Notes under the pieces: generated by a model
What the model saw: only the letters and a program-made list of their open reading frames with translations
Told to the model about the DNA's origin: nothing
The model's database searches: none
Position numbers and translations under genes: made by a program
Shown: positions 3,988-51,528 of the stretch, piece by piece
Position numbering within the stretch: position 1 is the first letter of the stretch
Layout: every line of letters starts with the position of its first letter
Assembly: GCF_003002815.1 (NCBI RefSeq)
Contig: NZ_PVTF01000014.1
Coordinates: 62,001 to 126,000 of the forward strand
DNA from: Umezawaea tangerina
Lineage (GTDB): Bacteria > Actinomycetota > Actinomycetes > Mycobacteriales > Pseudonocardiaceae
Length of the DNA stretch: 64,000 nt
Direction: 5' to 3'

Positions 3988-3990
3988 CCC

Positions 3991-7416: not shown

Positions 7417-7443
7417 TTTCACGGTACGGAGCGGAGGATTGGT

Positions 7444-7473
7444 GAACCCGGTTCAACGAAGTGAGCCGGGTTC
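7444..7473 (+). terminator. Candidate hairpin after the helicase gene
   Basis: An 8-bp inverted repeat (GAACCCGG at 7444-7451 and CCGGGTTC at 7466-7473, 14-base loop) lies 27 bases past the helicase stop. There is no U-tract, as is common in actinomycetes. The AT-richer stretch 7480-7560 that follows is the likely promoter zone of the response-regulator gene. Confidence 0.45.
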
Positions 7474-7582
7474 GCCTATCGCCGCGGTTGAATTACCTCT
7501 TTCGAGTGGAATATCCATCCTTTGTTACGTTTTCCGCCGCTGATCCGACTTCTTTTGTACACGACTCGGAGGAAGGTGGCTG

Positions 7583-8245
7583 GTGATCACGATCGCGGCT
7601 GTCGACGACCATCCGCTGATTCTGCACGGACTGGGGGCCTACTTGGCGAAATTCGCGTCGGACGTGACGTTGCGCGCGGTCTACCTGTCGGTTTCGGAGC
7701 TGTTGGCGAATCCACCGGTGCCGGAGGTGGTGCTGCTCGACCTGCTGCTGCCGGGGGAGCCCGAGGTCGCTGACAACGTGCGCAGGCTGCGCGAAGCCGA
7801 CGCGCAGGTGGTCGTCTACACCTCCGACACCCGACCTGGATGCGTGCACCAGGCGTTGCGAGCCGGGGCGCTCGGGTTGGTGTTGAAGGGAGATCCCGAG
7901 GAGCGGCTGGTCGACGCGATCCGGGCCGCGGCGGCCGGGGAGAGCGCCCATTCCAGCAGGCTCGCGCACGCGATCATCGAGGACCGGCGTGCGTTCATCC
8001 AGCTGCCGCAAAGGGAACGCGATGTCCTGACGCTGATCGCGAAAGGGCTTCCCCGCAAGCTGGTCGCGAAGGAACTCGGCATCAGCGAAAAGACGTTGCC
8101 GACCTACCTGAGTCGCGCGAGTGAACGCTACCGGGACGCGCTCGGCATTCCGGTGCCGCCGAGTCCGGGTGAGACGGTCGCGTTCGCCTTGGAGGACGGG
8201 CACATCGAGTTGTCAGCCGACCGGCCGCTTCGTGACGAGCCCTGA
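7583..8245 (+). CDS. NarL/LuxR-family response regulator
   Basis: 220 residues. An N-terminal receiver has the acidic pair D8-D9, the phospho-acceptor D53 (VVLLDLLLPG) and the conserved Thr/Ser (VVVYTSDT, about residue 76). A C-terminal LuxR-type helix-turn-helix follows (about 133-180, with ERDVLTLIAKG and VAKELGISEKT). GTG at 7583 is preceded by GGAGGAAGG. It sits directly upstream of a sensor kinase gene on the same strand, so the pair forms a two-component system whose stimulus cannot be read from the sequence. The HTH reads KTLPTYLSR where VxxHxxx is more usual, so its target specificity may be atypical. The position between a restriction-like operon and a nucleotide cyclase suggests, without proof, a role in an accessory island. 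Confidence 0.85.
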   Translation: MITIAAVDDHPLILHGLGAYLAKFASDVTLRAVYLSVSELLANPPVPEVVLLDLLLPGEPEVADNVRRLREADAQVVVYTSDTRPGCVHQALRAGALGLVLKGDPEERLVDAIRAAAAGESAHSSRLAHAIIEDRRAFIQLPQRERDVLTLIAKGLPRKLVAKELGISEKTLPTYLSRASERYRDALGIPVPPSPGETVAFALEDGHIELSADRPLRDEP

Positions 8246-8282
8246 CACGTCTCGCACCTACCTCTACGGCGTAGAGCGGGGT

Positions 8283-10463
8283 ATGCAGCGGTCGTTCGCC
8301 TCGCTCGCCCTGCTCCTGCTGGGGTCGAACCTCGGCACGATCGTGCCCATGGCGGATCGGGTGCCTCCGGCCGTGCTGGTGATGACGGCGATCTTCGGCG
8401 GGTATCTGTGCGTGACCGCCGCCCGTGCCTGGCGTGTGCGCCTGGGCGCGGCGGACAGCGTCACCGGAATGGTGTTGGCCGGGGTGAGCGCCCTGGCCTA
8501 CGTGGTGCCCACCGAACTGGTGCTGCCGATGGCGACCAGGGGCAACGCCGTGGTCGTGGCGACACTGCTGGCCGCGGGATTCCTGCGGACGCGTCTCGCG
8601 GTCGTGAGCTGCCTTGTGCTCGTGCTCGTGTACTTCGCGACCGCGCTGCCGGTGGACGGCCTGGCGGGAGCCGCGGAAGGGTTGTGGCCGATCCTGGCGT
8701 CTCCGCTGGCCGCCGGCGCGGTGAGCCGGGTGCTGCGGAGAGCCGCGTCCCGTGCCGATGAAGCTCAGGTTTCCGTGCACGCCGCGCGTGTCCTGTCCGC
8801 GTCGTCCGAAGCCCGGCGTGCGGCGCACAAGCAGTTCCAGCGCACCCTGCACGACGACGTGGCGGCGGCCTTGCGAGCTGTGACGACCCTTGGTCTCGAT
8901 CCTGAAGCGGTGCGCCAGGCTTGTGCCACCGCGATGATCCGCGCCGAGGCGGCGCCCGTGCCGCCGTCCAGCGAGGTAGAGGACCTGCGTGCCGGCCTGG
9001 ACCTGTTGCCTGGCCCGGCGGGGACGAAGGTGGAGCGGCTGCCGGGCCCACGGGTTCTGGTGTCCGGCGAGGTGGTGCGCGCCGTGCTCGACGCGGCCCG
9101 CGAGGTGCTGGCGAACGTCGGGCGGCATGCCAAGGCGACGGTGGTCGTGATCGAGCTCGTGGGCGACCGGGAGGGGTTCGTGTTGCTGATCCGCGACGAC
9201 GGCGTCGGCTTCCGCACGGACATGGTGCGCCGGACGTCGTTGGGTCTGCGGGAATCGGTCATCGGGCGGCTCGCCGAGATGGGCGGGACGGCCGACGTGC
9301 GCTCCGCGCCGGGAGAGGGGACCACCGTCGAGCTGCGGTGGTCGCGCCCGCGCGGCGAACCGCTGCCACCGGTTGTGAAGAGCACGCGCCTGCGAGGCAT
9401 GACCGCCGCGGTCGACGACTTGAGGCAGCCCCTTGCCGCGGTGTGCCTGCCCTACCTGGCAAGCATGGTCCTGCCGGTCGTGAGCAACCTGGACGCCGCA
9501 CCGGGGATGGGGTGGCTCGCGGCGTGGTACGGAATTCTGACCGCGGGCACAGTGCTGTTGATCATGTTCGCTTGTAAGGCGGTGCCTCTCGCGGTCGGCG
9601 TACTGGCGGGAGTGTGGGCCGGAGGTGGTGCGGCCGCCGCGCTCTTGGTGATCCCCGCGGACAGCTTGACGAACTTCGCCTCGTGGCCCATCGGCGCGAC
9701 CGGCCCGATGCTCGTCGTTCTGGGCACGCTCTGGCGTTGGCCCCTGTCGGTGGCGGCGCTCTTCGTCGAAGAGGTCCCGTTGCTCGGAATGATCGCCTCC
9801 GGCGCCTTCGTCACGCGCTCGTACACGGACGCTCTGCCCGCTGTCACGGCGCCGATGCTCGCACTGGTGATGGGCCTGGTCATCACGAACACCATCGCGA
9901 GGCTGGGTGGCGTGGTGCTCGCGGCGGGAGCCGAACGCACGGAGATCGCGGTGTCGACCGCCGCGCGTGACAGCAGGCTTTCCGTCCACGCGAAGCGGAT
10001 CGCCGAGATAGGAGCCGAGATCCTGCCGTTCCTGCGCTGGTTGGCCACCGCTGACCGCGCCGCGTTCGACCTGGAGGAGACCCGCGTCCGCGCTCGTGGA
10101 CTGGAGTGGATGGCCCGCGACGAACTGCACATCCCCGGAGTCCTGGACACGAGGCTGCGTCACCTGCTGATGACCGCGCGGGACAGCGGATGCGTGGTGA
10201 CCGTCCAGGCCGATACCGACACCCTGCACCCTCCGAGCAGTGTGCGCGTCGTGCTCGACGCGGCGCTGTCGACCTCCCCGATGCCGAGGGAACTCATCCT
10301 CTCGCTGTCGACCGAGGGCAGTGGGGTGCTGATCAGCCTGGTGTGCCAGCCGCATGACCGCGCACGGGCGGACGCACTGCGAACCGCGCTGCCCTCGGCT
10401 GCGGTGACCGAGTACGAGGCCGAGGCCATCGCGGTCGAACTGCTCGTCGCCCTCGACACCTGA
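8283..10463 (+). CDS. Sensor histidine kinase with duplicated, degenerate second module
   Basis: 726 residues from ATG at 8283 (GAGCGGGG upstream). An alternative GTG at 8232 would overlap the regulator gene. Residues about 1-165 hold roughly six membrane segments. A HisKA_3 dimerisation helix follows with the phospho-acceptor His190 (RTLHDDVAAAL), then an HATPase domain with N-box Asn278 (LANVGRHAKA), G1 box RDDGVGF and G2 region GEGTTVEL. After about residue 370 a second block of about six membrane segments is followed by a kinase-like C-terminal part (about 560-726) with no recognisable His box, N-box or G-box. The architecture looks like an internal duplication in which the second kinase core has decayed. 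The first core should phosphorylate the adjacent response regulator. The ligand is unknown. Confidence 0.85.
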   Translation: MQRSFASLALLLLGSNLGTIVPMADRVPPAVLVMTAIFGGYLCVTAARAWRVRLGAADSVTGMVLAGVSALAYVVPTELVLPMATRGNAVVVATLLAAGFLRTRLAVVSCLVLVLVYFATALPVDGLAGAAEGLWPILASPLAAGAVSRVLRRAASRADEAQVSVHAARVLSASSEARRAAHKQFQRTLHDDVAAALRAVTTLGLDPEAVRQACATAMIRAEAAPVPPSSEVEDLRAGLDLLPGPAGTKVERLPGPRVLVSGEVVRAVLDAAREVLANVGRHAKATVVVIELVGDREGFVLLIRDDGVGFRTDMVRRTSLGLRESVIGRLAEMGGTADVRSAPGEGTTVELRWSRPRGEPLPPVVKSTRLRGMTAAVDDLRQPLAAVCLPYLASMVLPVVSNLDAAPGMGWLAAWYGILTAGTVLLIMFACKAVPLAVGVLAGVWAGGGAAAALLVIPADSLTNFASWPIGATGPMLVVLGTLWRWPLSVAALFVEEVPLLGMIASGAFVTRSYTDALPAVTAPMLALVMGLVITNTIARLGGVVLAAGAERTEIAVSTAARDSRLSVHAKRIAEIGAEILPFLRWLATADRAAFDLEETRVRARGLEWMARDELHIPGVLDTRLRHLLMTARDSGCVVTVQADTDTLHPPSSVRVVLDAALSTSPMPRELILSLSTEGSGVLISLVCQPHDRARADALRTALPSAAVTEYEAEAIAVELLVALDT

Positions 10464-13651: not shown

Positions 13652-14153
13652 GCCGCGGAACACACCCCTTTGTCGTCCGGCGGCGCGCGTGCGTGTGCGA
13701 CACCATTCCAAGATCCATGGCGGAGTCCGGGCGCGCTCCTGCGGGCGCCCGGCGGTCCGCGGGTCATCCTGGCACGGGGGAACTGTCCGGAGAACGGTTT
13801 TCCGCCCCGCCGGGGTTTGTTATAAGAATGGCGAATAGGTGGGCACGGCTGGGGTGACCTTGTCGTGGGAAACCCTATTCGCCCGTTGACAGTGCGGCCC
13901 CGGTGTGCGTGGAACCGCTTCTACCTGGGGGTTGTCGAGCCATCCGGCCTTCGCATGCCAGGTTTCGGGATGTGCTGGTGAGGGCTGTGCTTCCTGTGCA
14001 TAATACGGCGGACCCGGACATCCCGCGGTAATGGACAGCGCTCGGTGGGCGATTTTTCCGGTGAACAGCCCATTCGGTGGCGACAAACGGGTGAACCCCC
14101 GATTTCACCGGGGCTGGACTTCCGAAATCACGACGGACGGGAAATGGCGGACG
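13652..14153. other. Divergent intergenic region
   Basis: About 500 bases between the MFS transporter (minus) and the mycothiol-dependent dehydrogenase (plus). No convincing gene is seen. AT-rich patches around 13800-13840 (TTGTTATAAGAATGG) and 13995-14005 (GTGCATAATACGG) are the best promoter candidates. Upstream in-frame codons of the dehydrogenase reach 14031, but conservation starts only at 14154. Confidence 0.4.
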
Positions 14154-15245
14154 ATGTCGCAGACGGCTAAGGCAGTGGTCGCACTCGGCAAGGGGCGGCC
14201 GGTGGAGGTGCGGGACGTCATCGTCCCGGACCCCGGACCGGGGGAGGTGACGGTCCGGGTCCAGGCGTCCGGCGTCTGCCACACCGACCTGCACTACCGG
14301 GACGGCGTCATCGGCGACAAGTTCCCCTACCTGCTGGGCCACGAGGCCTCCGGTGTGGTGGACCGGATCGGGCCGGGCGTGCACAACGTGGCCCCCGGCG
14401 ACTTCGTGATCCTCAACTGGCGCGCGGTGTGCGGGCGCTGCCGCCCCTGCCGTCGCGGCAACCCGACCGCGTGCGTCGACGACTTCGTGGCGGACCAGCA
14501 GATGACGCTGGCCACTGGTGAGCCGCTCGGTGCGGCACTCGGCATCGGCGCGTTCAGCGAGCTGACCCTCGTCCACAGTGGACAGTGCACGCCGGTCGAC
14601 CCCCGCGTCGACCCGGCGGTGGCCGGGCTGCTCGGCTGCGGCGTGATGTCGGGGCTCGGCGCGGCGATGAACACCGGCGGGGTCACCAGGGGCGACTCGG
14701 TCGCGGTGATCGGCGTCGGCGGTGTCGGCGGGGCGGCGGTGGCCGGTGCGAAGCTGGCGGGCGCCACCCGGATCATCGCGGTCGACGTGGACGAGCGGAA
14801 GCTGGCCCACGCCAAGGGGTTCGGCGCGACGGACCTGGTCGACGCCCGGAAGACCGACGACGTGGTCGCCGCCATCAGGGCGCTCACCGACGGCCTCGGT
14901 GCGGACGTGGTGATCGACGCGGCCGGCTTCCCGGAGACCTGGCGGCAGGCGTTCTACTCCCGTGCGCTCGGCGGTACGTTCGTGCTCGTCGCCCGGCCGG
15001 ACGCGGGGATGCGCCTGGAGATGCCGCTGCTCGACACCTTCCTGCGCGGCGGCGTCTACAAGACCTCCTGGTACGGCGACTGCCTGCCGTCGCGGGACTT
15101 CCCGGCGCTGGTCGACCTGCACCTGCAGGGCAATCTGCCGCTGGAGAGGTTCGTCACCGAGAGGATCTCGCTGGCCGACGTCGAGGAGGCGTTCGTCAGC
15201 ATGCGCCGCGGTGACGTCCTGCGCAGCGTCGTGGAGATGGGCTGA
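14154..15245 (+). CDS. mscR: S-(hydroxymethyl)mycothiol dehydrogenase
   Basis: 363 residues. A zinc-dependent class III alcohol dehydrogenase oxidising the formaldehyde-mycothiol adduct, and in relatives also reducing S-nitrosomycothiol. Seen are the catalytic-zinc Cys in [13 protein letters not shown], the His in GHEASGVV, the start of the structural-zinc site (CGRCRPC, with a later Cys in GNPTAC), the Rossmann glycines ([12 protein letters not shown]) and family-typical stretches such as [18 protein letters not shown] and [14 protein letters not shown]-like (here [14 protein letters not shown]). ATG at 14154 is chosen because homology begins there ([14 protein letters not shown]). The gene stands alone, upstream of a strong hairpin. 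It indicates that the host makes mycothiol, an actinobacterial trait. Identification rests on close resemblance to remembered family sequences. Confidence 0.9.
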
Positions 15246-16320: not shown

Positions 16321-17124
16321 TCAGCGATGGGCGTCCACTTGGGACTCGCGCAGCACGCGCAGGAGCTCCTGGCGCAGCCCGGCGCAGACGGCGATCGTCG
16401 CCGCCGAGTCGGCGGTGTGCTCGGTGTCGTCGAGGTCCACGACGACACCGCCCGCTTCGCGCACCAGCAGCACACCGGCGAGCGTGTCCCACGGCATGTT
16501 CGCGAGGATGACCGACGCGTCCAGCCTGCCCTGCGCGACCCACGCCAGGTCGATCGCCGCCGTGCCGATCATCCTGATCCGCTGCGCACGGGCGCCGAGC
16601 CTGCTGAGCAACGCCATCCGGACGGCGTTCTTCGCCTCCGCGCCCTCACCGCGCGCGAAGTCGCCGATGGAGATCACGGCCTCCGCCACGTCGTCCACGG
16701 CCGAGGCGCGGACGCGCTCTTCACCGACGAACGCGCCCCCGCCCTGCACGGCGGAGTAGGTCACGCCGAGGAACGGCGCGTCGATCGCGGCCAGCACCCC
16801 GCGGCGACCCGCGACCAGGCCCAGTGACACGGCGCACAACGGGATGCCGCGGGCGAGGTTCGCCGTGCCGTCGACCGGGTCCAGGGCCCACCACAGCGAG
16901 TCGTCCGCCGGCCCGCTGCGACCGTGCTCCTCGCCGAGCACGCCGATCTCCGGCGTCTCCCGCGCCAGGAACGCCTGCACGGCGTCCTCCACGGCGAGGT
17001 CGACGTCGGTCACCATGTCGCGCTCGCCCTTGGCCGTCACCGACCGCGGCGCGCGCTCGGTGACGATCCTGTTGCCGATCGCCACGGCCTCGCGGGCGAT
17101 CGGCAGCAGGTCCTCGTAGCTCAA
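16321..17124 (-). CDS. Inositol-monophosphatase-family phosphatase
   Basis: 267 residues. Mg-dependent sugar-phosphate phosphatase fold: GEEHGRSG supplies the first metal Glu, WALDPVDGTANLARGIP the central DxxDGT motif, and MPWDTLAGVLLVREAGG the C-terminal WD motif. The TTG start at 17124 overlaps the stop of the cyclohydrolase gene (TTGA), so it is translated from the same mRNA. Members hydrolyse inositol-1-phosphate, histidinol-phosphate, PAP or nucleotide-sugar phosphates, and the substrate cannot be assigned from sequence. Coupling to a GTP cyclohydrolase II suggests it dephosphorylates a ribosyl-pyrimidine phosphate intermediate, which is inference. Confidence 0.85.
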   Translation of the reverse strand: MSYEDLLPIAREAVAIGNRIVTERAPRSVTAKGERDMVTDVDLAVEDAVQAFLARETPEIGVLGEEHGRSGPADDSLWWALDPVDGTANLARGIPLCAVSLGLVAGRRGVLAAIDAPFLGVTYSAVQGGGAFVGEERVRASAVDDVAEAVISIGDFARGEGAEAKNAVRMALLSRLGARAQRIRMIGTAAIDLAWVAQGRLDASVILANMPWDTLAGVLLVREAGGVVVDLDDTEHTADSAATIAVCAGLRQELLRVLRESQVDAHR

Positions 17125-17768
17125 CGGTCGACCGCGTGCGGCAGGTCGGACTCGAACACGTCCACCTGCGGGAGGTCGTGGCCGAGCCGGTCGCGCTTCG
17201 CGGTCAGGTAGCCGATGTTGTGGTCGTTCGCGGGCATCAGCAGCGGCACGCGCGCCGCCACCGCGATCCCGTTCGACTCCAGCGCCTCGATCTTGTCCGG
17301 GTTGTTGGACATGAGCCGCACCGACCGCACCCGCAGGTGCCGGAGCACCAGCGCGGCCGGGCCGTAGTCGCGGGTGTCGACGGGCAGTCCCAGCGCCGTC
17401 GCCGAGTCGAGCGTGTCCATGCCCTGCTCGTCCTGCAGCACGTGCGTGCGCACCTTCTCGACCAGGCCGATGCCCCGGCCCTCGTGGCCGCGCAGGTAGA
17501 TCAGGATCCCGCTGCCCTCGCGGACGATCGCGTCCAGCGCCGCGTCCAGCTGTTCGCCGCACTCGCACCGCATGGCGCCGAAGATGTCACCGGTCATGCA
17601 CTCCGAGTGCACGCGGACGAGCACGTTCTCGCGCATCCGCGTCTTCCCGTAGACCATGGCCATGTGCTCGTGCCCGTCGGCCCGGAACGCCACGGCGCGG
17701 AACGTCCCGCGCCTGGTCACCAGGTCCGACTCGGCCACGTCTTCGTGACTGATGGCTTGCTCGTGCAT
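17121..17768 (-). CDS. GTP cyclohydrolase II paralogue, probable FAPy-forming type
   Basis: 215 residues. Opens the GTP imidazole ring. Zinc ligands Cys57, Cys68 and Cys70 ([16 protein letters not shown]) and the [10 protein letters not shown] loop are intact. At the position of the Tyr in the E. coli RibA QGYDT motif this protein has Met117 (QGMDT), and the nearby Tyr of KIRAY is His109. From memory, the S. coelicolor paralogue SCO6655 has Met at a conserved Tyr (reported as residue 120) and releases the formylated product FAPy instead of the deformylated one. The present protein shows the same kind of change. It is monofunctional (no RibB domain) and is not in a riboflavin operon. It reads divergently from the PTPS-like gene, 80 bases away, which is probably a shared promoter region. 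Confidence 0.85.
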
Positions 17769-17848
17769 CCGGTCCCCTCGTCACCAGGTTCCGTCCGATC
17801 GCATCTAGTCTCGGCCGGAAGTCGTACCGTAACCCGGCTCGACCACAC

Positions 17849-18259
17849 ATGGAGGTCACCCTGTTCAGCATTACCGTCCGCGATCACGTGATGATCGCGC
17901 ACAGCTTCCGCGGCGAGGTCTTCGGTCCGGCACAACGCTTGCACGGAGCAACGTTCGTGGTGGACGCGAAGTTCAACCGGACCGATCTCGACTCCGACAA
18001 CATCGTCGTCGACATCGGACTGGCCACCCAGGAGCTGGGCGCTGTCCTCGCCGAGTTCAACTACCGCAACCTGGACGAGGTACCCGCTTTCACCGGCGTC
18101 AACACGTCGACGGAGTTCCTCGCCAAGGTGATCGCGGACCGGTTGGCGGACCGCGTCCACGCGGGTGCGCTCGGTGAGGGCGCCCGCGGGCTGAGCGCGA
18201 TCTCCGTCACGTTGCACGAGTCGCACGTCGCGTGGGCGAGCTACGAACGTCCGTTGTGA
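17849..18259 (+). CDS. 6-pyruvoyltetrahydropterin synthase (QueD/PTPS) homologue with altered active site
   Basis: 136 residues. The PTPS fold is recognisable from [21 protein letters not shown] and the C-terminal [11 protein letters not shown]. Classical enzymes bind Zn with three His and use a Cys nucleophile before the LHGH motif. Here His18 and His32 remain, the third ligand is Ala34 (LHGA) and no Cys is present. Normal PTPS or QueD chemistry is therefore unlikely. From memory, a structurally studied S. coelicolor homologue (SCO6650) near the FAPy-forming cyclohydrolase also has a changed active site. ATG at 17849 is used; a TTG 12 bases on (LFSITV) is an alternative. The gene begins a four-gene overlapping run on the plus strand. 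It probably acts on the opened-ring product of the adjacent cyclohydrolase. Confidence 0.8.
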
Positions 18260-19281
18260 CCGTCCACGTGGTCCTCCCCGGCGGGGTCGACGACGTGACC
18301 GCCCCCAGCGGGGGCAACGTCTACGACCGCAGGGTCTGCGCCGGGCTCGGCGTCCACGAGGTGGCCGTCGGGGGTGCCTGGCCGCGTCCGGGGGCAAACG
18401 TTCGCGCGGAGCTGGCGGCCGTGCTGGCCGGGTTCCCCGACGGCGACGTGGTACTGCTCGACGGGCTCGTGGCCTGCGGCGTTCCCGAGGTCGTCGGACC
18501 GCAGGCCGGCCGACTGCGGCTGGCCGTCCTGGTGCACCTGCCGCTGGCCGACGAGACCGGCCTGACCCCCGCGGCCGCGGCGGAGCTCGACGCCGCCGAG
18601 CGGGCCGTCCTGCGGGCCGTGGACGCGGTCGTGGCGACCAGCCCGTGGGCGGCGCGGCGGCTGGTCGGGCACCACGGGCTGGCTCCCGAGCGGGTGCACA
18701 CCGTCGTGCCCGGCACCGACCCCGCCCCGCTCGCGCCCGGCAGCGGCGGGTCCGGGCGGCTGCTCTGCGTGGCCTCGGTGACCCCGCGCAAGGGCCACGA
18801 CCTGCTGGTGCAGGCCCTGGCGACGGTCGCCGACCTGCCGTGGACGCTCGACTGCGTCGGGCCGCTGGGCCACGCCGAGCACGTCGCGCGGGTCCGCGAG
18901 CTGGCCGAGCGGCACGGGCTCGCCGACCGGGTGCGGCTCACCGGCCCGCTCACCGGCGAGCCGCTGCACCGGGCCTACGCCGCCGCCGACCTGTTCGTGC
19001 TGGCCTCCCGCGCCGAGACCTACGGGATGGTGGTGACCGAGGCGCTGGCCCGAGGCCTCCCGGTGCTGGCCAGCGCGGTGCCCGACGCGCTCGGCGACGG
19101 CGGGCTGCTCCTGCCGCCGGGTGACGCCGGGGCGCTCGCGGCCGCGCTGCGGCGCTGGTTCACCGACGAGGACACCCGTCGTGAGCTGCGCGGATCGGCC
19201 CTCCGCCGGAGGGGCGCGCTGCCGACGTGGGACGAAGCCGTCCGGGACCTGGGACGGGTGCTGGCTAGCCTGCGCGGATGA
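18256..19281 (+). CDS. GT4-family glycosyltransferase
   Basis: 341 residues. GTG at 18256 overlaps the previous stop (GTGA). The C-terminal Rossmann half carries the GT-B/GT4 signature: [17 protein letters not shown], the phosphate-binding Lys region, [18 protein letters not shown] with the EX7E motif, and [16 protein letters not shown]. The N-terminal half starts with [17 protein letters not shown], where a glycine-rich acceptor loop is expected. It transfers a sugar from a nucleotide donor to an unknown acceptor in the cytoplasm. Translational coupling to the PTPS homologue and the methyltransferase points to tailoring of the same metabolite. Confidence 0.85.
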
Positions 19282-20072
19282 CGACACCTGGCTTCGCCCC
19301 GGAATGGCTCTCCCTGCGCGAGAGCGCCGACGCCGACGCCCGCTCGACCGAGCTCCCGGAGCTGCTCGGGCCCGCGTTGAACCGGGACCCCCTGGTCGTA
19401 CGTGACCTGGGTTGTGGAACGGGATCGATGGGACGGTGGCTCGCCGGACGGCTGGGCGGCGTGCAGCACTGGGTGCTGCACGACCGCGACCCCCGTCTGC
19501 TCGACCTGGCCGGTGCGAGCATGACCGGCCACGGGGTGACGGTGCAGACGCGGGAGGGCGACCTCACCGCGCTGCGGGCGGCCGACCTCGAGGGCACCTC
19601 GCTGGTGACCGCCTCGGCGCTGCTGGACCTGTTGACCGACGACGAAGTGAACGGGTTGGCCGCCGCGTGCGTAGAAGTCGGTGTGCCCGCACTGTTCACG
19701 CTCTCCGTCGCCGGGAAGGTCGAGCTCGATCCGGCCGACCCGCTCGACGCCGCGTTCCAGGAGGCGTTCAACGCCCACCAGCGCCGCGTCGTGGACGGCC
19801 GCCGTCTGCTCGGCCCCGACGCCGTGGCGGCCACGACGAGCGCGTTCGAGACCCGCGGCGCCCAGGTGGTCACCCGGCCCAGCCCGTGGCGGCTCGGGGC
19901 GGACCAGGCCGCGCTGACGGCCCAGTGGCTGCGCGGCTGGGTCGCCGCGGCCTGCGAGCAGGACCCGGCGCTGGCCGCCGACGCCCCCGCCTACCTGGAA
20001 CGACGGCTCGCGGGCGGGTCGCGGGTCGTGGTGCACCACACCGATCTCCTGGCGCTCCCGAGGGCCGACTGA
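19278..20072 (+). CDS. SAM-dependent methyltransferase
   Basis: 264 residues. Class I fold with motif I VRDLGCGTGSMGRWL, an acidic residue ending strand 2 (VLHDRDPRLLDL), and VTASALLDLLTDDEV around motif IV. ATG overlaps the glycosyltransferase stop by 4 bases. Substrate is unknown; the position in the operon suggests methylation of the GTP-derived product or of its glycoside. Confidence 0.8.
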   Translation: MTTPGFAPEWLSLRESADADARSTELPELLGPALNRDPLVVRDLGCGTGSMGRWLAGRLGGVQHWVLHDRDPRLLDLAGASMTGHGVTVQTREGDLTALRAADLEGTSLVTASALLDLLTDDEVNGLAAACVEVGVPALFTLSVAGKVELDPADPLDAAFQEAFNAHQRRVVDGRRLLGPDAVAATTSAFETRGAQVVTRPSPWRLGADQAALTAQWLRGWVAAACEQDPALAADAPAYLERRLAGGSRVVVHHTDLLALPRAD

Positions 20073-21076
20073 TGGGCAGGCTGTGGCCGTGGCTGCGCCT
20101 GCTGATGGCGGTCGGCATCCTCGTTGCGCTGGGGTGGCGGCTCGGTACCGGCGCGTTCGTGGACGGGCTGCGCGCGATCAGCGCGTGGTCCGTGCTCGCC
20201 GCGCTGGGCATCGGGTTCGCGACCACCGTGCTCAGCGCGTGGCGGTGGTGCGTCGTCGCCCGCGGCCTCGGCCTTCCGCTGCCGCTGGGCACCGCCGTGG
20301 CGGACTACTACCGCGGCCTGCTGCTCAACTCCGTGCTCCCCGCGGGCGTGCTCGGCGACGTGCACCGCGCGGTGAACCACGGCAAGCAGTCCGGTGACGT
20401 CGGCCGCGGCGTGCGCGCGGTGGTGTTCGAGCGGTTCGCTGGCCAGGTGGTGCTGATCGCCATCGGTGTCGCCGTGCTGCTCACCCAGCCCGTCACGGCG
20501 GTGGACCTCGTGCCCGGCCGCGGTGTCGTGCTCACCGCGCTGGCGGTGCTCGCCGTCGCGGCCGGGCTCGCCGCGAGCTCCCCGGCCGTGCGCCGGGCGC
20601 TGCGGACGACGTGGGCGGACGCGCGGGCGGGCCTGCTGTCCCGCTCCGCCCTGCCGCGCGTGGTGTTCTCGTCCGCGGCGACCCTGCTCGGGCACCTCGC
20701 GATGTTCTTCGTGGCGGCCAGGGTCGCCGGGTCGACGGCGTCGGTCGGCCAGCTCGTGCCGCTGTTCGTGCTGGCGCTGCTGGTGATGGCGATCCCGGTG
20801 AACGTCGGTGGCTGGGGACCGCGCGAGGCGTTCCTCGCGGTCGCGTTCGGCACGGCCGGACTCGGTGCGGCACAAGGGCTCACCACCGCGGTCGTCTACG
20901 GCGTGCTGGCCATGGTCGCCGGTCTGCCCGGTGTGCTGGTGCTGTTCCGCGGTCGGGCCACCGCACCCGTCGTGCCGCCGGTACCCGCGGGGCGGCCGTC
21001 AGGCGCCCAGGACGTCGAGGTACTGCCCGAACGACTCGACCAGCGCCGCGAGCAGGTCCTCCCCCTTGCGGCTTGA
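20072..21076 (+). CDS. YbhN/UPF0104-type integral membrane protein (LPG synthase TM family)
   Basis: 334 residues with about eight membrane segments. Family-typical elements are ALGIGFATTVLSAWRWCVVARGLG, split here as two helices, YYRGLLLNSVLPAGVLGDVHRA, and VNVGGWGPREAFLA near the end. The family (PF03706) includes the flippase half of lysyl-PG synthase and many orphans next to glycosyltransferases. A lipid- or polyprenyl-linked product is therefore plausible. Its ATG shares one base with the preceding stop. Its last 78 bases overlap the convergent creatininase gene, so the C-terminal 26 residues (hydrophilic) lie in a double-coding stretch. Confidence 0.8.
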   Translation: MGRLWPWLRLLMAVGILVALGWRLGTGAFVDGLRAISAWSVLAALGIGFATTVLSAWRWCVVARGLGLPLPLGTAVADYYRGLLLNSVLPAGVLGDVHRAVNHGKQSGDVGRGVRAVVFERFAGQVVLIAIGVAVLLTQPVTAVDLVPGRGVVLTALAVLAVAAGLAASSPAVRRALRTTWADARAGLLSRSALPRVVFSSAATLLGHLAMFFVAARVAGSTASVGQLVPLFVLALLVMAIPVNVGGWGPREAFLAVAFGTAGLGAAQGLTTAVVYGVLAMVAGLPGVLVLFRGRATAPVVPPVPAGRPSGAQDVEVLPERLDQRREQVLPLAA

Positions 21077-21694
21077 CGCGAGCGAAGGTCGGCCGACGAC
21101 ACCGGACTCCGTGTACGGGGCCAGTCCCAGCGTCAGCAGGTGCCGCCGGTCGTCGGCGAGGTGGTCGCTCGTCCCGTACCCGGCCCGCACCACCTCGGGG
21201 TGGGCGTGCAGCAGGATCGACGTCTCCAGCTCACCCGCGTGCATGTCGCTGTCGGCCGACGTCTCGATGCCCGCGGCGGTCCGCGCGCCGTCCCAGTCGG
21301 CCAGGCCGGGGAACAACGCCATCCCGTCGGACTCCTGCACGATGTTGGAGAGCACGTAGTTGCCCCCGTGCCCGTTGACCAGGACCAGGTTCGGGACGCC
21401 GGAGCGGCGCAGCGAGTCGGCGATGTCGCGCACCACCGAGAACAGCGTGCGCGCCGAGATGCTCACCGTCCCCGGCCACGCCGCGTGCTCCTGCGAGCAC
21501 GAGATCGTCAACGGCGGCAACAGCTGCACGGGGTACGCGTCCGCGACGGCCCGCGCGATCGTGCACGCGATGACGGTGTCCGTCGCCAGGGGCAGGAACT
21601 CGCCGTGCTGCTCGTGGCTGCCGACGGGCAGCACGGCGACGGTCGCCCGGCGGTCGCGGACGTCGGTGGTGGTGTCAAGCGGAACCAGCTGCAT
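20999..21694 (-). CDS. Creatininase-family amidohydrolase, possible FAPy deformylase
   Basis: 231 residues. The metal-binding pattern of the creatininase family is intact: PVGSHEQHGEFLPLATDT supplies Glu, His and Asp, NGHGGN a loop residue, and HAGELETS the His/Glu pair. The family includes creatininase, MftE and the archaeal FAPy formyl-hydrolase ArfB. Because a Met-type (FAPy-forming) cyclohydrolase II sits in the same locus, removal of the formyl group from FAPy is the most economical job. That is inference. ATG at 21694 is favoured; TTG at 21712 and GTG at 21703 are alternatives. It overlaps the upstream dehydrogenase gene by 20 bases and the convergent YbhN-like gene by 78. Confidence 0.8.
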   Translation of the reverse strand: MQLVPLDTTTDVRDRRATVAVLPVGSHEQHGEFLPLATDTVIACTIARAVADAYPVQLLPPLTISCSQEHAAWPGTVSISARTLFSVVRDIADSLRRSGVPNLVLVNGHGGNYVLSNIVQESDGMALFPGLADWDGARTAAGIETSADSDMHAGELETSILLHAHPEVVRAGYGTSDHLADDRRHLLTLGLAPYTESGVVGRPSLASSRKGEDLLAALVESFGQYLDVLGA

Positions 21695-22664
21695 GCTCCG
21701 CACGGTAGTCAATCCGGTGGCACAGCGCCGGGAGCTCGCCGCTGGCCAGCCTCGGCACCACGTCGGGCAGCTCGTCGAAGCGGCTCTCGCCGGTGATGAG
21801 CGCGTCGAACACCGGGTCCGCCAACAGGTCCAGCGCCAGCGCCATCCGCTCGGCGTAGGTCCGGTCCGGACGGCCGACCGTCCCGACCTGGCTGCTGCGC
21901 ACGGTGAGCCTGCGGGAGTGGAAGAACTCGCCGAGCGGCACGCTGACCCGCCGGTCGCCGTACCAGCTCAGCTCGACCACCCGGCCCTCCGGCGCGAGCA
22001 GTTTCAACGACCTGGTGAGCCCGGCCTCGGTGGCGCTGGCGTGCACGACGAGGTCGCACCCCGCCAGGGCGTCCTCGGGCAGCGCGAAGTCCACGCCGAG
22101 CGCGTCGGCGACGTCCGCGCGCGCGGGATCGGCGTCCACCAGCTGGATCCGGGCGCCGGGGAACCCCGCGAGCACCCCGGCGACGGCGCACCCGACCATC
22201 CCGCCGCCGACGACCGCGATCCGGTCGCCGATGAGCGGAGCCGCGTCCCACACCGCGTTAACGGCCGTTTCCACCGTCCCGGCGAGCACGGCGCGCTGGG
22301 GTGGAACCGGTTCCGGGACCGGTGTCACCGCTTCGGCGGGCACGACGTACTCCGTCTGATGTGGATGGAGGCAGAACACCGTGCGGCCGCGGAGATCCGG
22401 CGGACCGTCCTCGACGACACCGACGTTGAGGTACCCGTACTTGACCGGCCACGGGAAGTCGCCCTCCTGGAACGGCGCCCGCATCGCGGAGTGCTGGTTC
22501 TCGGGCACACCACCGCGCAGGACAAGGGCTTCCGTGCCGCGGCTGATCCCCGAGTAGAGCGTGCGGACGCGGACCTCGCCGGGCCCCGGATCGGGGATCC
22601 GTCCGTTCCGGATCTCACTTTTTCCGTCCGAGGTGAACCAAAGAGACCTTGCCGCGCGTGTCAT
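21675..22664 (-). CDS. MDR-superfamily (zinc-type alcohol) dehydrogenase
   Basis: 329 residues. ATG at 22664 has GGAGG at proper distance. GroES-like N-terminal domain (DPGPGEVRVRTLYSGISRGTE) and Rossmann domain (IAVVGGGMVGCAVAGVLA). The SGISRGTE subtype lacks the usual catalytic Cys and structural-zinc Cys cluster; seen instead is FCLHPHQTEYVVP. Oxidises or reduces an unknown alcohol or carbonyl with NAD(P). Co-transcribed with the creatininase gene. Divergent by 47 bases from the CDP-alcohol phosphotransferase. Confidence 0.8.
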   Translation of the reverse strand: MTRAARSLWFTSDGKSEIRNGRIPDPGPGEVRVRTLYSGISRGTEALVLRGGVPENQHSAMRAPFQEGDFPWPVKYGYLNVGVVEDGPPDLRGRTVFCLHPHQTEYVVPAEAVTPVPEPVPPQRAVLAGTVETAVNAVWDAAPLIGDRIAVVGGGMVGCAVAGVLAGFPGARIQLVDADPARADVADALGVDFALPEDALAGCDLVVHASATEAGLTRSLKLLAPEGRVVELSWYGDRRVSVPLGEFFHSRRLTVRSSQVGTVGRPDRTYAERMALALDLLADPVFDALITGESRFDELPDVVPRLASGELPALCHRIDYRAEHAAGSA

Positions 22665-22711
22665 CCAAGAACCTCCGAGAAAAACGACGGGGCCCACTGC
22701 CGAGGGGCGTG

Positions 22712-23461
22712 ATGACCACACTTCAGCACAACACCACGATGTCGGCCGTGCCGGAGCACGCGGCGTGGGCGGGCTCCCAAGTCCTCCTGCTCGGTGTGCT
22801 CGACGGCACGGTGGGGCTCAACCTCGTCGGTTGGCTCGCCGGACTCGCCTACGCCGTCGCCACCTGGGCGCTGCTGGGCGGCGCGTTGCAGCGCTCCGGC
22901 ACCGCGCTGGGCCCGGCCGACCGGGTCACCCTCGCCAGGGGCGTGCTCGTCGGCGCCGTCACCGCGCTGGTGGTCGACCGGGCGGGGGAGGGCGTGCCCA
23001 CGACGCTCGTCGTCGTCTTCACCGCCGTGGCGCTGTCGCTGGACTTCGTGGACGGCCAGGTCGCCCGGCGCACCGGGACCGCGTCGCCGCTGGGTGCCCG
23101 GTTCGACATGGAGGTCGACGCCTTCCTCATCCTCGTGCTGAGCGCCCACGTGGCGCTCGCGCTGGGCCCGTGGGTGCTGCTGATCGGCCTGATGCGCTAC
23201 GTCTTCGTCGCGGCGTCCTGGGCGGCGCCCTGGCTGTCGGCGGACCTGCCGTCGAGCTACGCCCGCAAGACCGTGGCCGCGCTGCAGGGCGTGTTCCTCG
23301 TCGTGGCCGCGTCCGGTCTGCTGCCCCGCGCGGAGATCGTCGTCGGGGTCGCCCTCGCGACGCTGCTGTGGTCGTTCGGCCGGGACACGGCGTGGCTGTA
23401 CCGCAACCGGCCGACCCTGGTGGCGGAGGCCGCGGCGGTGGAAGGATGCGTCCATGTCTGA
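22712..23461 (+). CDS. CDP-alcohol phosphatidyltransferase family protein
   Basis: 249 residues from ATG at 22712 (GAGGGG upstream). The catalytic CDP-OH-P motif DFVDGQVARR, then G-x3-D-x3-D (PLGARFDMEVDAF), is complete at about residues 112-138. Six membrane segments surround it. The enzyme joins a CDP-activated alcohol to a hydroxyl acceptor with loss of CMP. In this locus it may attach or transfer a (glyco)phospho moiety to the GTP-derived product at the membrane, which is inference. The next gene overlaps its end by 8 bases. Confidence 0.85.
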   Translation: MTTLQHNTTMSAVPEHAAWAGSQVLLLGVLDGTVGLNLVGWLAGLAYAVATWALLGGALQRSGTALGPADRVTLARGVLVGAVTALVVDRAGEGVPTTLVVVFTAVALSLDFVDGQVARRTGTASPLGARFDMEVDAFLILVLSAHVALALGPWVLLIGLMRYVFVAASWAAPWLSADLPSSYARKTVAALQGVFLVVAASGLLPRAEIVVGVALATLLWSFGRDTAWLYRNRPTLVAEAAAVEGCVHV

Positions 23462-23849
23462 CCGGGGCACCACCGCGCGCAACGTCGGCAACATCGTGCT
23501 GTGGGTCGTCCAGATCCTGCTCGCCGCCTACTTCGTCTACAGCGGGTACCTGCTGTTCGGCGACGGCACCGTGCGGAAGTTCGACGAGATCGGCCTCGGC
23601 CAGTGGCTGCGCTACCTCACCGGCGTGCTGGAGGTCGCGGGCGCCATCGGCCTGCTCGTCCCGCGGCTGTGCGGACTGGCCGCGCTGGGGCTCGCGGGTG
23701 TGATGGTCGGCGCTGTCGGCACCGAGCTGTTCCTGGTGGCCAAGGGCGGTCCCGTGCTGCCCGCCGAGCTGCTCGTGGTGTGCCTCGTGGTCGCGTTCTT
23801 CCGGCGGGACACCGTCCTCGCGCTCCTGGCGAGCGTCCGCCGGTCCTGA
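23454..23849 (+). CDS. DoxX-family membrane protein
   Basis: 131 residues, four membrane segments, with the DoxX-like layout (LLAAYFVYSGYLLF, then YLTGVLEVAGAIGLLVPR). DoxX relatives occur with oxidoreductases and in redox stress complexes, but the biochemical role is undefined. It overlaps the phosphotransferase gene and ends exactly one base before the convergent reductase gene ends (stops at 23849 and 23850). Confidence 0.75.
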   Translation: MSDRGTTARNVGNIVLWVVQILLAAYFVYSGYLLFGDGTVRKFDEIGLGQWLRYLTGVLEVAGAIGLLVPRLCGLAALGLAGVMVGAVGTELFLVAKGGPVLPAELLVVCLVVAFFRRDTVLALLASVRRS

Positions 23850-24521
23850 TCAGCGCTTGGGGAAGTAGCGCAGCACGGCCACGTCCCCGAGCTTCTCCAC
23901 GGCCTCCAGGTGGAACCGGTGCGCGGGCCCGCCGGGGAACTCGCCGGGGTTCACGAACCGCGGCGCGGAACCCTGCCCGATGAGCATGGGCGCGACCGCC
24001 ATCCGGATCTCGTCGGCCAGCCCGGCCTCCAGGAAACCGGTGTGGATCCGGCCGCCGCCCTCGACCATGAGCCGCTCCACGCCGCGGCGGCCAAGGTCGT
24101 CGAGCAGGTCGCCGAGGTCGATCGCGGACCCGAGCGCGACGACCTCCGCGAGGCCGCCGAGGCACGCCGTCGCCGTCACCCGGCCGGAATCCGTTGTGTA
24201 GACGAGCTTCTCGCCACCGTGGTGCCAGAACCTCAGGTCGGGGTCGAGGTTCCCTGAGTCGGTGACGGTGACCTTCACGGGGTGCTCGACGAGTCCGGCC
24301 GCCACCCGCGCCGCCCGGCGCTCGCCGCTGTTCACCAGCAGCCGCGGGTTGTCCCGGCGCACGGTCTCCGCGCCCACCAGGATGGCGCCCGACTCCGCGC
24401 GCATCCGGTCCACGTGGTCGAAGTCGTCCGCGTTGGACAGCGGGAACCGCTCCGCGCTCCGGTCGTCGATGTAGCCGTCCACGCTGACGGCGACGCTGAG
24501 CAGAACGTACGGGCGCGTCAC
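23850..24521 (-). CDS. RibD C-terminal-type pyrimidine reductase
   Basis: 223 residues from GTG at 24521. Dihydrofolate-reductase-like fold of RibD_C: SVDGYIDD at the N-terminus, AILVGAETVRRDNPRLLV (NADPH/substrate loop) and MVEGGGRIHTGFLEAGLADE. In riboflavin or archaeal F420 routes this family reduces the ribosylaminopyrimidine side chain to ribityl. A stand-alone RibD_C beside a FAPy-type cyclohydrolase and a creatininase homologue mirrors the archaeal order of steps ArfA-ArfB-ArfC. Its substrate here is inference. Confidence 0.85.
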   Translation of the reverse strand: MTRPYVLLSVAVSVDGYIDDRSAERFPLSNADDFDHVDRMRAESGAILVGAETVRRDNPRLLVNSGERRAARVAAGLVEHPVKVTVTDSGNLDPDLRFWHHGGEKLVYTTDSGRVTATACLGGLAEVVALGSAIDLGDLLDDLGRRGVERLMVEGGGRIHTGFLEAGLADEIRMAVAPMLIGQGSAPRFVNPGEFPGGPAHRFHLEAVEKLGDVAVLRYFPKR

Positions 24522-24645: not shown

Positions 24646-26328
24646 ATGTCGTTGGGCACGCTTCTCCGGCGGAGGGCCGATCCGGCCGCCGCGACCGCAC
24701 CCACCCGCCGCCGCCGCGCGGTCACGTGGGTCGTCACCGGGTTGGCGGGCCTGTTCGTGCTGCTGGTCCTCGTGGCCCCGGCGGACTTCGACCGCTTCAC
24801 GGTCGGGGAGTTCGCCCGCGTGCCGCTGGAGGGTCTGGTCGGCGTGGTGGTCCTGCTGGTCCTGCCGCCGCGGGCGCGCCGGGTCGTCGCCCTGGTCGGC
24901 GGCGTGCTGCTCGGCGTGCTGACCGTGGTGAAGCTCATGGACATCGGCTTCGACGCGGTGCTGTACCGGCCGTTCGACCTGGTGCTGGACTGGCCGCTGC
25001 TCGGACCCGCGGTGGACTACGTGAAGGTGACCGTCGGCACGGCGGGCGAGATCGCCGCGATCGTGCTGACCGCGCTGCTCGTCATCGGCGTGGTCGTGCT
25101 CACCACCCGCTCGGTGCTGCGGCTGGCCGACGTCGTGGGCAGGCACCGCCTCGCCGCGACCCGCGCCGTGGCGCTGGCCGCGATCGCCGCGCTCACCTGG
25201 GTGTTCCCCGGCGTGCCGGTCGTGTCCTCCAACGCCGTGTCGCTGGCGGTCGACCACACCAAGCAGGTGGGGGTCGGGCTGCACGACAAGGAGGCGTTCG
25301 CCGCGGAGTCCGCGGTCGACGCCTACCGCGACACCCCCGGCAGCCAGTTGCTGACCGGGTTGCGGGGCAAGGACGTCGTGATCGCGTTCGTGGAGAGCTA
25401 CGGCCGCGACGCGGTCGAGGACCCCGAGCTCGCGCCGGTCGTCGACGCCGCGCTGGACCGGGGTACGCGGACCCTCAAGGAGGCCGGGTACAGCTCGCGC
25501 AGCGGCTGGCTCACCTCGCCCACGGCGGGCGGCGGCAGCTGGCTGGCGCAGGCGACCCTGCTGTCCGGGCTGTGGATCGACAACCAGCAGCGCTACCGCA
25601 CGCTGATGGCCAGCGACCGGCTCACCCTCAACGACGCCTTCCGGCGCGCGGACTGGCGGTCGGTCGGCGTCGTCCCCGGCATCACGCAGGCGTGGCCGGA
25701 GGGCGAGTTCTTCGGCTACGACCCCGTCTACGCCGCCGCCGACCTCGGCTACCGCGGCCCGCGCTTCGGCTACGCCACCATGCCCGACCAGTACACGCTC
25801 TCCGCGTTCCAGAAGGCCGAGCGCTCCAAGCCGGGTCACGCGCCCGTGATGGCGTCGATCCCGCTGCTGTCGAGCCACGCGCCGTGGTCGCCGATCCCGC
25901 GGGGCATCGACTGGGACGACGTCGGCGACGGGTCGGTGTACAACACGATGGAGTCCGGCAACCAGGCGCCCGAGTCGATCTTCGGCCGCGACCCCAAGGG
26001 CGTCCGCGCCGACTACGCGCGGTCCGTCGAGTACTCCGTGGACACCCTCGTGTCCTACGTGAAGACCTACGGCGACGACAACCTGGTGCTCGTCTTCCTC
26101 GGCGACCACCAGCCCGCCCAGATCGTCACCGGGGAGGGCGCGGGCCACGACGTGCCGATCACCGTCGTCGCCCACGACCCCGCCGTGCTGGACCGCGTCT
26201 CCTCGTGGGGCTGGAACGACGGCATCAAGCCCGCCCCGGAGGCCCCGGTGTGGCCGATGAGCGACTTCCGCGACAAGTTCCTCACCGCGTTCGGCACGCC
26301 GCCCACCGTCGCGGCGGTCAGCCCTTGA
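24646..26328 (+). CDS. Membrane sulfatase/alkaline-phosphatase-superfamily protein
   Basis: 560 residues from ATG at 24646 (GGAAGGG upstream). Five N-terminal membrane segments (about 22-200) precede an extracytoplasmic hydrolase domain with VIAFVESYGRDAVED (metal Glu and following loop), WLTSPTAGGGSWLAQATLLSG (Thr/Ser nucleophile region) and VFLGDHQPAQIV (Asp-His metal pair). The architecture resembles LtaS- or OpgB-like phosphoglycerol transferases. It could transfer or hydrolyse phosphoglycerol or sulfate groups on a surface glycolipid. It follows the GTP-derived cluster and may belong to it. The C-terminus overlaps the convergent monooxygenase-like gene by 11 bases. Confidence 0.8.
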   Translation: MSLGTLLRRRADPAAATAPTRRRRAVTWVVTGLAGLFVLLVLVAPADFDRFTVGEFARVPLEGLVGVVVLLVLPPRARRVVALVGGVLLGVLTVVKLMDIGFDAVLYRPFDLVLDWPLLGPAVDYVKVTVGTAGEIAAIVLTALLVIGVVVLTTRSVLRLADVVGRHRLAATRAVALAAIAALTWVFPGVPVVSSNAVSLAVDHTKQVGVGLHDKEAFAAESAVDAYRDTPGSQLLTGLRGKDVVIAFVESYGRDAVEDPELAPVVDAALDRGTRTLKEAGYSSRSGWLTSPTAGGGSWLAQATLLSGLWIDNQQRYRTLMASDRLTLNDAFRRADWRSVGVVPGITQAWPEGEFFGYDPVYAAADLGYRGPRFGYATMPDQYTLSAFQKAERSKPGHAPVMASIPLLSSHAPWSPIPRGIDWDDVGDGSVYNTMESGNQAPESIFGRDPKGVRADYARSVEYSVDTLVSYVKTYGDDNLVLVFLGDHQPAQIVTGEGAGHDVPITVVAHDPAVLDRVSSWGWNDGIKPAPEAPVWPMSDFRDKFLTAFGTPPTVAAVSP

Positions 26329-50194: not shown

Positions 50195-50626
50195 ACTGCG
50201 CCGCTCCCGTTCACAACGCGCACGCCCGCGCGGGCACAGCTGGTGCCAACCGCCCACTTTACCGCTCTGTGCGGGGAAAACAGCGCCCTAAAAAGGCAAC
50301 ACCGTTGACGAATGACGGGTCAACGATGAGGCTGTGGACATACCCGTCGGTACCTCGACGACTTGACGCGAAATGAGACGCGGCTTGCAAGGTTGGGACC
50401 AAGACGGCACAACGCGCGAGGCGAGAAGTGCGCGAGGGCAGGCTTCGCAGGTCAAAAGGCCATGAAGAATGATAACCGCGTGACCGAACCGGACCCCTGT
50501 GGCACGCTCTCATAGTAAGTTCACGCGGAGTCAAGACTGCGACGCGCGATGCGCGCCGGGCGTCAAGAGTTCGTAGAGGTCGCTCGCCCACACTTCGAAT
50601 CGAAAGATCGAACTGTGGAGGCACTC
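50195..50626. other. Divergent regulatory region
   Basis: 432 bases without a gene, between the SARP gene (minus) and a LuxR gene (plus). It contains a 7-bp palindrome CGTTGAC/GTCAACG (50303-50325). It also holds CATGAAGAATGATAACCGCG at 50461-50480, which matches 58496-58515 at 16 of 20 bases. TGATAA there may be a -10 element. Confidence 0.5.
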
Positions 50627-51250: not shown

Positions 51251-51528
51251 CAGCAGGACCGATTGTTCGTTTAGTCCACAACCGTGGTGCCTTTCAGCAC
51301 GAAGACCGGTGATTCCCCCGCCGAGGAACCGCGCGCTTGCTCCGCACTCGCAGCGCGGTCCGGTGATTCGAACTTCGTTTCCCGCACTACCCGGTCGACC
51401 GCACGACGCCGATGACGTGGCGCACCGCCGAAGACCGGGGCCAACGGGCCCCGGTCGGCGGTCGACCCGGAAGGTGATTCCACGAAATGATTTTCCGACG
51501 CACGTGCATTCGCGCGTGCGGATGCCGG
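51251..51528. other. Convergent gap with terminator
   Basis: 278 bases between the LuxR and SARP 2 genes. No gene is seen. The strong hairpin at 51433-51456 is the only recognisable element. Confidence 0.5.
51433..51456. terminator. Strong hairpin terminator
   Basis: A perfect 10-bp stem (51433-51442 with 51447-51456, loop AACG) extended by CGCC/GGCG outside. It lies between convergent regulator genes. Confidence 0.75.

Follow-up and report, generated by a model that had tools for sequence, protein, structure and literature searches.

The stretch of DNA analysed here, called the window throughout, comprises 64,000 nucleotides of Umezawaea tangerina (contig NZ_PVTF01000014.1, positions 62,001 to 126,000) from a genome of 10.7 Mb, and it carries a compact gene set in which enzymes related to GTP-derived chemistry lie among sugar and membrane genes. 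We define eight core genes, encoding a PTPS-fold protein, a GT4-family glycosyltransferase, a methyltransferase, a YbhN-like membrane protein, a creatininase-family protein, an MDR-superfamily oxidoreductase, a CDP-alcohol phosphotransferase (CDPOH) and a paralogue of GTP cyclohydrolase II (GCHII). All families that a preliminary description had listed at 16321-24521 were matched by Pfam, which confirms that observation, and five likely start codons of cluster genes were checked (Table 1). Two parts of that description change. Its gene set holds and its end probably does not, as a sulfatase-like gene (24646-26328), whose product is possibly, in our estimation, LtaS/EptA-like, extends the cluster; among relatives' loci this gene recurs in 12 of 16, among the others in 14 of 80, and the cluster therefore probably ends near 26328. 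Furthermore, the core genes of its eleven-member set stand, with the phosphatase and the DoxX-like protein reduced to accessory members. We conclude that this is a dedicated biosynthetic cluster, which is real, widespread in filamentous-type actinobacteria (many of them from soil) and orphan; no described product of it was found among the papers listed from the open-access literature, most subscription papers lying outside that search.

Table 1. Genes of the cluster, with window coordinates, strand, Pfam match and presence among 104 loci
Feature	Coordinates	Strand	Pfam match	Loci of 104	Remarks
Inositol-monophosphatase-family phosphatase, accessory	16321..17124	-	PF00459 1.5e-49	11	start TTG at 17124
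GCHII paralogue, predicted to stop at FAPy (AFRPP)	17121..17768	-	PF00925 2.6e-59	86	His109 opposite E. coli RibA Tyr105
PTPS-fold protein without catalytic Cys and one zinc His	17849..18259	+	PF01242 2.1e-22	102	108/132 residues as in SCO6650 / PDB 3D7J
GT4-family glycosyltransferase	18232..19281	+	PF13692 2.4e-27	100	
Class I SAM methyltransferase (Methyltransf_25)	19278..20072	+	PF13649 2.1e-9	97	SCO6652 position by gene count
YbhN-like (LPG_synthase_TM) membrane protein, possible flippase	20072..21076	+	PF03706 2.6e-29	96	
Creatininase-family protein, predicted FAPy deformylase	20999..21712	-	PF02633 3.2e-60	85	
MDR-superfamily oxidoreductase	21675..22664	-	PF00107 8.3e-8, just over cut-off	100	weak BchC-like N-terminus
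CDPOH	22712..23461	+	PF01066 2.8e-12	98	
DoxX-like membrane protein (DoxX_2), accessory	23454..23849	+	PF13564 2e-14	12	
RibD_C-family reductase	23850..24521	-	PF01872 3.8e-41	32, weak ones counted	best model archaeal DARPP reductase
Membrane sulfatase-superfamily protein, past the end first described	24646..26328	+	PF00884 6.7e-4, below cut-off	26	GDHQP conserved in alignment A4

Conservation and the Streptomyces counterpart

A profile search of genome contigs with the PTPS alignment confirmed at least 587 of 594 stretches, the best 80 of which were used, a choice that is biased toward near relatives and spans nine genera by record titles. These 80, together with 16 loci retrieved through the PTPS-fold protein and 8 through the creatininase homologue (G-handle genomes), make up the 104 loci, among which L056 and L087 (Amycolatopsis regifaucium; relative G017) are one stretch that is kept twice in all counts of 104. 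The preliminary description had staked its proposal on the genes co-occurring in other genomes, and co-occurrence is what we find: all eight core genes are present at 40% identity or more in 67 of the 80 loci, which were retrieved by the PTPS-fold protein alone. Full flanks are available for 69 of these loci, and 61 of them have the complete set. The complete sets occur in four arrangements, seen in 60, 12, 5 (including the duplicate stretch) and 4 loci, and the co-occurrence of eight genes in several orders implies that selection keeps them together. A chance neighbourhood of unrelated genes is a negligible prospect in the face of so many complete full-flank loci, in several orders and across the nine genera.

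Control sequence points the same way. In 253,179 bases, made up of parts of the window beyond the cluster together with loci fetched for other creatininases, RibD_C proteins and GCHIIs, there are zero matches at 40% identity or more to the PTPS-fold, GT4, methyltransferase, YbhN-like or creatininase-family proteins. The matches that do occur are 29 to GCHII, which are there by selection, two to RibD_C and one each to the MDR, CDPOH, DoxX-like and sulfatase-like proteins. The CDPOH, DoxX-like and sulfatase-like matches and one RibD_C match trace to the window's own locus refetched (L159), and the other RibD_C match (L200) and the MDR match, at 41% (L199), come from genomes in which the cluster, or a distantly related version of it, is present. 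The MDR match of L199 (G068:C796) lies beside a GCHII match; that genome has a distant form of the cluster, of which the match is possibly a further piece on another contig.

Among the 41 genomes of the relatives' search a PTPS-like protein is present in 17 (own genome counted), and in a draw of 396 genomes from the phylum it is present in 8 at 75% identity or more and in 2 at 54-56%. The creatininase homologue, sought in an equal-sized draw with matching handles, is found at 67% or more in 7 genomes (own counted), all of them among the 8 PTPS-positive ones; the eighth, G038, has in its locus a GCHII with the usual tyrosine, considered below, in place of the creatininase homologue. The next-best creatininase matches, at 56%, come from G317 and G081.

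The suggestion that similar genes lie at SCO6650-SCO6655 of Streptomyces coelicolor proved correct, as seen in the PTPS identity (Table 1) and in a fetched locus, L088, with the same six genes. Its PTPS-fold protein is 99% identical to 3D7J, deposited for SCO6650 as 'Uncharacterized protein SCO6650', and its order is PTPS, GT4, methyltransferase, YbhN, creatininase, GCHII. The window differs from this arrangement in gene order, in a His-type rather than Met-type GCHII, and in its additional RibD_C, DoxX-like, sulfatase-like and phosphatase genes. With SCO6650 as the PTPS-fold protein, SCO6655 as GCHII and the six-gene order between them, gene counting makes SCO6652 the methyltransferase. In one expression study, SCO6652 ranks with the conserved genes of unknown function whose expression differs most, with log2 values against the first mycelium of 0.8, 4.3 and 4.1 at 24, 48 and 72 h (substrate mycelium, aerial mycelium and spores), a 17- to 20-fold rise in the aerial and spore stages (PMC3610822). 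SCO6655, as GTP cyclohydrolase II, stands in a table whose genes are said to be mostly up-regulated in stationary phase (PMC2853524). In Streptomyces, the cluster product is probably made during aerial growth and sporulation. In L071, L080, L088 and similar loci the intergenic region between the CDPOH and MDR genes, upstream of the MDR gene, looks by eye strongly conserved, with a GTGACA...TACTGT-like promoter.

The predicted entry from GTP

The GCHII of the window keeps the Cys of its HSEC and RCEC motifs, corresponding to the SEC...CxC Cys that we take to be zinc ligands, and in an alignment with the E. coli enzyme (2BZ0) has His109 opposite Tyr105, a residue presumably needed for full conversion to 2,5-diamino-6-ribosylamino-4(3H)-pyrimidinone 5'-phosphate (DARPP). 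Loss of this Tyr goes with the creatininase homologue. Fetched loci with both genes number 83 (82 distinct), and in all of them the position is taken by Met (62) or His (21). Among cluster GCHIIs lacking a creatininase homologue, those of L065, L090 and L215 carry Tyr, and that of L091, with a degenerate zinc motif, carries Ser. Outside the PTPS loci Tyr is found in all 31 readable GCHIIs, three from the own genome and the remainder from 28 of the 30 loci obtained for 41 GCHII match rows (L199 gave no match and L203 is the L065 GCHII fetched again). The own genome holds four GCHIIs, of which the cluster copy is the only one without Tyr. This association fits formation of a formamidopyrimidine (FAPy) from GTP by one enzyme and its deformylation by another, as with BrbF, and backs the GTP to FAPy to deformylated pyrimidine route of the preliminary description. 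The S. coelicolor orthologue SCO6655 reportedly makes FAPy because its Tyr is replaced by Met, in work of Spoonamore and colleagues from 2006. A start in which FAPy would be formed and then deformylated is well supported by these sequence comparisons, and its two steps are the best-supported ones of the pathway proposed here.

The creatininase homologue is the only PF02633 match in the own genome, and its EQHG, TD, HGGN and HAGE motifs, which we take to supply the metal ligands E, H, D, H and E of the family, are near-invariant in alignment A2 (one row empty). A bacterial precedent is BrbF of Sinorhizobium and Brucella, a protein annotated as a creatininase that strips formate from FAPy 5'-phosphate in riboflavin synthesis and whose FAPy-forming cyclohydrolase is, according to that paper, yet to be discovered (PMC9478397). 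The likeness is one of description: in both cases a creatininase-type protein acts, or here is predicted to act, as the deformylase of FAPy. BrbF serves riboflavin, whereas here a GCHII variant adjoins the hydrolase within a set of sugar and lipid genes. A role in mycofactocin synthesis was rejected, as the homologue misses the cut-off of the MftE model (the mycofactocin genes themselves were not sought). In L075 (8803-10623), from an actinobacterium that is less closely related though of the same phylum (G317), a 56% homologue lies beside a RibD_C gene and a gene of the cytidine-deaminase family, without the PTPS cluster; this set points to RibD-type chemistry and is perhaps a separate GTP-derived pathway.

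A reductase of the RibD_C family would provide the next step. Among seven NCBIfam models the cluster protein fits best that of the archaeal DARPP reductase (TIGR01508; 1.2e-42, 145.5 bits), scoring above the bacterial RibD models with it, yet below its cut-off of 186.45. The archaeal riboflavin and F420 route (ArfA-ArfB-ArfC) splits FAPy formation, deformylation and reduction, all before deamination. We propose the same split here, with the difference that a GCHII variant takes the place of GTP cyclohydrolase III. Among 18 cluster-positive genomes, 13 have a RibD_C protein at 50% identity or more (E 1e-30), two have a GCHII-RibD_C fusion type and three have neither; the fusion was checked by Pfam in L090 and assigned by likeness in L091, whose GCHII is degenerate. 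The fusion in L090 (13827-15206, Pseudonocardia asaccharolytica cluster), which keeps Tyr, the compact PTPS-GT4-YbhN-RibD_C-GCHII run of L215 and an unlinked RibD_C-GCHII pair in G437 (Kutzneria) appear to be different ways to supply the same early chemistry. In genus g44, which resembles Streptomyces in cluster order and sequence similarity, all 6 cluster-positive genomes have an unlinked RibD_C gene, as do 2 of the 5 that are cluster-negative. The gene has a Tyr-type GCHII nearby in 5 of those 6 but in neither of the 2, a pattern that is suggestive only. Strict coupling of reductase and cluster was not upheld, given the three cluster-positive genomes with neither form and the two cluster-negative g44 genomes with RibD_C. 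The unlinked RibD_C genes near a Tyr-type GCHII, seen in L244, L245, L246, L248, L249 and L252 (Streptomyces-type and Kutzneria G437), are perhaps a reduce-first pyrimidine module of archaeal order.

GCHII, a formamidase and RibD_C are riboflavin-type enzymes, and BrbF acts in riboflavin synthesis (PMC9478397), all of which would suit a BrbF-like module that offers a second route of supply for riboflavin or F420 and to which the sugar and lipid genes are mere neighbours. We consider this quite improbable. The own genome has, on contig C25, a Tyr-type GCHII with a RibB-like N-terminal part (by eye) near its strongest RibD_C match; the Pfam matches of the window proteins scanned, the window being the only locus annotated for these, include no RibB, RibE, RibH, lumazine synthase or riboflavin synthase; and the sugar and lipid genes are present in loci that lack both GCHII and the creatininase homologue.

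The later genes and a model for the pathway

In a profile alignment with the PTPS of 2G64, the cluster protein has Ala for Cys and HGA for HGH, residues that we take to be the catalytic Cys and a zinc His of functional PTPS. A28, H32, G33 and A34 are invariant in the 19 aligned rows, and the NTxTE and ESH motifs are retained. With the QueD model (TIGR03367) the protein scores 33.6 bits, below the cut-off of 89.25, and it is the only PF01242 match in the own genome. To judge from these residues, its probable role is to bind a molecule of pterin or pyrimidine type, with no PTPS catalysis; a structure paper of Spoonamore and colleagues from 2008 is said to take much the same view of ligand binding without catalysis. 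The pathways of QueD and PTPS (queuosine, deazapurines, tetrahydrobiopterin) share with the cluster the PTPS fold and a GTP-derived precursor, and differ in that the cluster protein has lost the catalytic Cys and one zinc His. A deazapurine or queuosine-type product was ruled out because this protein, without the zinc and catalytic residues, is the sole PF01242 match.

The CDPOH carries the motif DGxxARxxxxxxxxGxxxDxxxD, presumably the signature of CDP-alcohol phosphotransferases (DGxxAR...G...D...D), with D113, G114, A117, R118, G127, D131 and D135 invariant in 24 rows (alignment A3). Its score with the archaetidylinositol phosphate synthase model is 26.8 bits against a cut-off of 180, and its matches to solved structures are weak, the best being to cholinephosphotransferases. 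The best model for the GT4 protein is MshA, at 77.1 bits against a cut-off of 462.5, and the MDR protein matches TIGR01202 (BchC-like) at 2.9e-9, below cut-off. As no substrate-specific model reaches its cut-off, the sequence in which the product would be glycosylated, methylated and linked to the membrane, like the substrates of these reactions, is inferred from knowledge of the families.

We propose a five-step model in which a dedicated cluster takes GTP through FAPy to a deformylated pyrimidine that is then decorated and linked to the membrane, and to the model as a whole we give about even credence. The GCHII paralogue, by its residue signature and the reported activity of its Streptomyces orthologue, would open GTP to FAPy 5'-phosphate without removing the formyl group. 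The creatininase-family protein, as its co-variation with GCHII and the BrbF and ArfB precedents suggest, would then deformylate this to DARPP. A RibD_C reductase, whether encoded by the cluster or at another place in the genome, may yield the ribityl form. The PTPS-fold protein, lacking its zinc site, may bind the pyrimidine or a pterin derived from it, while the MDR protein would oxidise or reduce and the methyltransferase methylate. Finally, the GT4 protein would glycosylate, and the CDPOH and the YbhN-like protein would link the product to a phospholipid of the membrane and transfer it outward, joined in some lineages by the sulfatase-superfamily protein. Of the possible products, a membrane molecule that bears sugar and is formed during development is the most likely.

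A number of observations weigh against this model. At least one core gene is absent from 13 of the 80 loci, in some owing to contig ends. RibD_C at 40% identity or more occurs in only 7 of the 80, and 3 of the 18 cluster-positive genomes have neither a close RibD_C nor a fusion; of the reduced pyrimidine predicted in the preliminary description, the leaning toward the archaeal DARPP reductase model, under its cut-off, stands, and presence in every lineage does not. The substrates of the CDPOH and GT4 proteins are predicted from their families, and the evidence for a link to development comes from a single gene in a single table, with its identity set by gene counting. The Met and His GCHIIs are sister forms of one clade (support 0.994) in a tree of 108 sequences, 62 with Met, 21 with His (window in), 24 with Tyr and one with Ser (L077 left out), which indicates a single loss of Tyr, so that the 83 loci cannot be counted as separate tests. 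In G317 and G081 a creatininase homologue at 56% goes with Tyr-type GCHIIs only, and both genomes are PTPS-negative at E 1e-20. For the creatininase homologue itself the best NCBIfam model is MftE (TIGR03964), at 131.1 bits below the cut-off of 172, and the ArfB model gives 36.9 bits against a cut-off of 180.

The single loss of Tyr, the two genomes without a Met- or His-type GCHII and the MftE score would also favour a reading in which the creatininase homologue acts as a peptidase of MftE type or as some other amidase, GCHII makes a product other than FAPy and their association reflects lineage history. Such a reading is very improbable in our view, given that the L075 homologue adjoins genes of RibD-type chemistry and that, of 19 genomes tested, the 17 lacking the close homologue have no creatininase-family match above 41% identity.

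The early steps of the model could also lead to other end products. It is possible, if on the unlikely side, that the same early chemistry leads to a soluble, secreted, glycosylated and methylated metabolite akin to a pyrimidine, pterin or nucleoside, with the CDPOH and YbhN-like proteins serving export or an activated intermediate rather than a lipid anchor. Conservation of the GT4, methyltransferase, MDR and PTPS-like genes equals that of the membrane genes, and 8-azaguanine, which is not a lipid, offers a parallel. It is another GTP-derived natural product of Streptomyces (PMC7109123, PMC7674941). Against a soluble product stand the two usually lipid-linked membrane proteins, CDPOH in 98 and YbhN in 96 of the 104 loci, and the finding that no additional gene family, by our own gene calls, is shared by over 42 of these loci, which leaves no candidate exporter.

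Returning to a membrane-linked product, a more specific form of the five-step model, tentative and unlikely as it stands, is a new class of membrane lipid. Actinobacterial synthesis of phosphatidylinositol and phosphatidylinositol mannosides (PIM) uses a CDP-alcohol phosphotransferase, a monophosphatase and a GT4 enzyme, and the window holds an analogous trio. By this analogy, the CDPOH would join CDP-diacylglycerol to a GTP-derived ribityl-pyrimidine phosphate, as phosphatidylinositol phosphate (PIP) synthase does with inositol phosphate; the phosphatase and GT4 protein would act as in PIM synthesis, followed by methylation and YbhN-mediated export in aerial hyphae and spores. The cluster differs from PIM synthesis in that no inositol-phosphate-specific model is over its cut-off and the phosphatase is present in only 11 of the 104 loci.

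If the five-step model is true, many actinobacterial species, Streptomyces among them (the count of at least 587 is of stretches, not species), share an undescribed GTP-derived metabolite that is probably tied to sporulation, and the structure 3D7J gains a context. S. coelicolor, a model organism, carries the gene set as well. Furthermore, a GCHII-type source of FAPy beside a likely deformylase would bear on the missing cyclohydrolase of the BrbF bacteria (PMC9478397).

Neighbouring genes of the window

Upstream of the cluster, the S-(hydroxymethyl)mycothiol dehydrogenase gene at 14031-15245 is a neighbour in 1 of the 104 loci, that of the closest relative. A candidate phage-defence set lies at 10-10463 and comprises a Type IIG-like restriction-methyltransferase (also DrmMI-like), an HKD and Snf2 helicase (also DrmD-like), a small open reading frame with weak CARF similarity and a 780-amino-acid protein without a Pfam match at 1e-8 or a PADLOC match. 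Further downstream, at 46568-55224, two large BTAD/AAA/LuxR-type regulators flank a small gene on the opposite strand.

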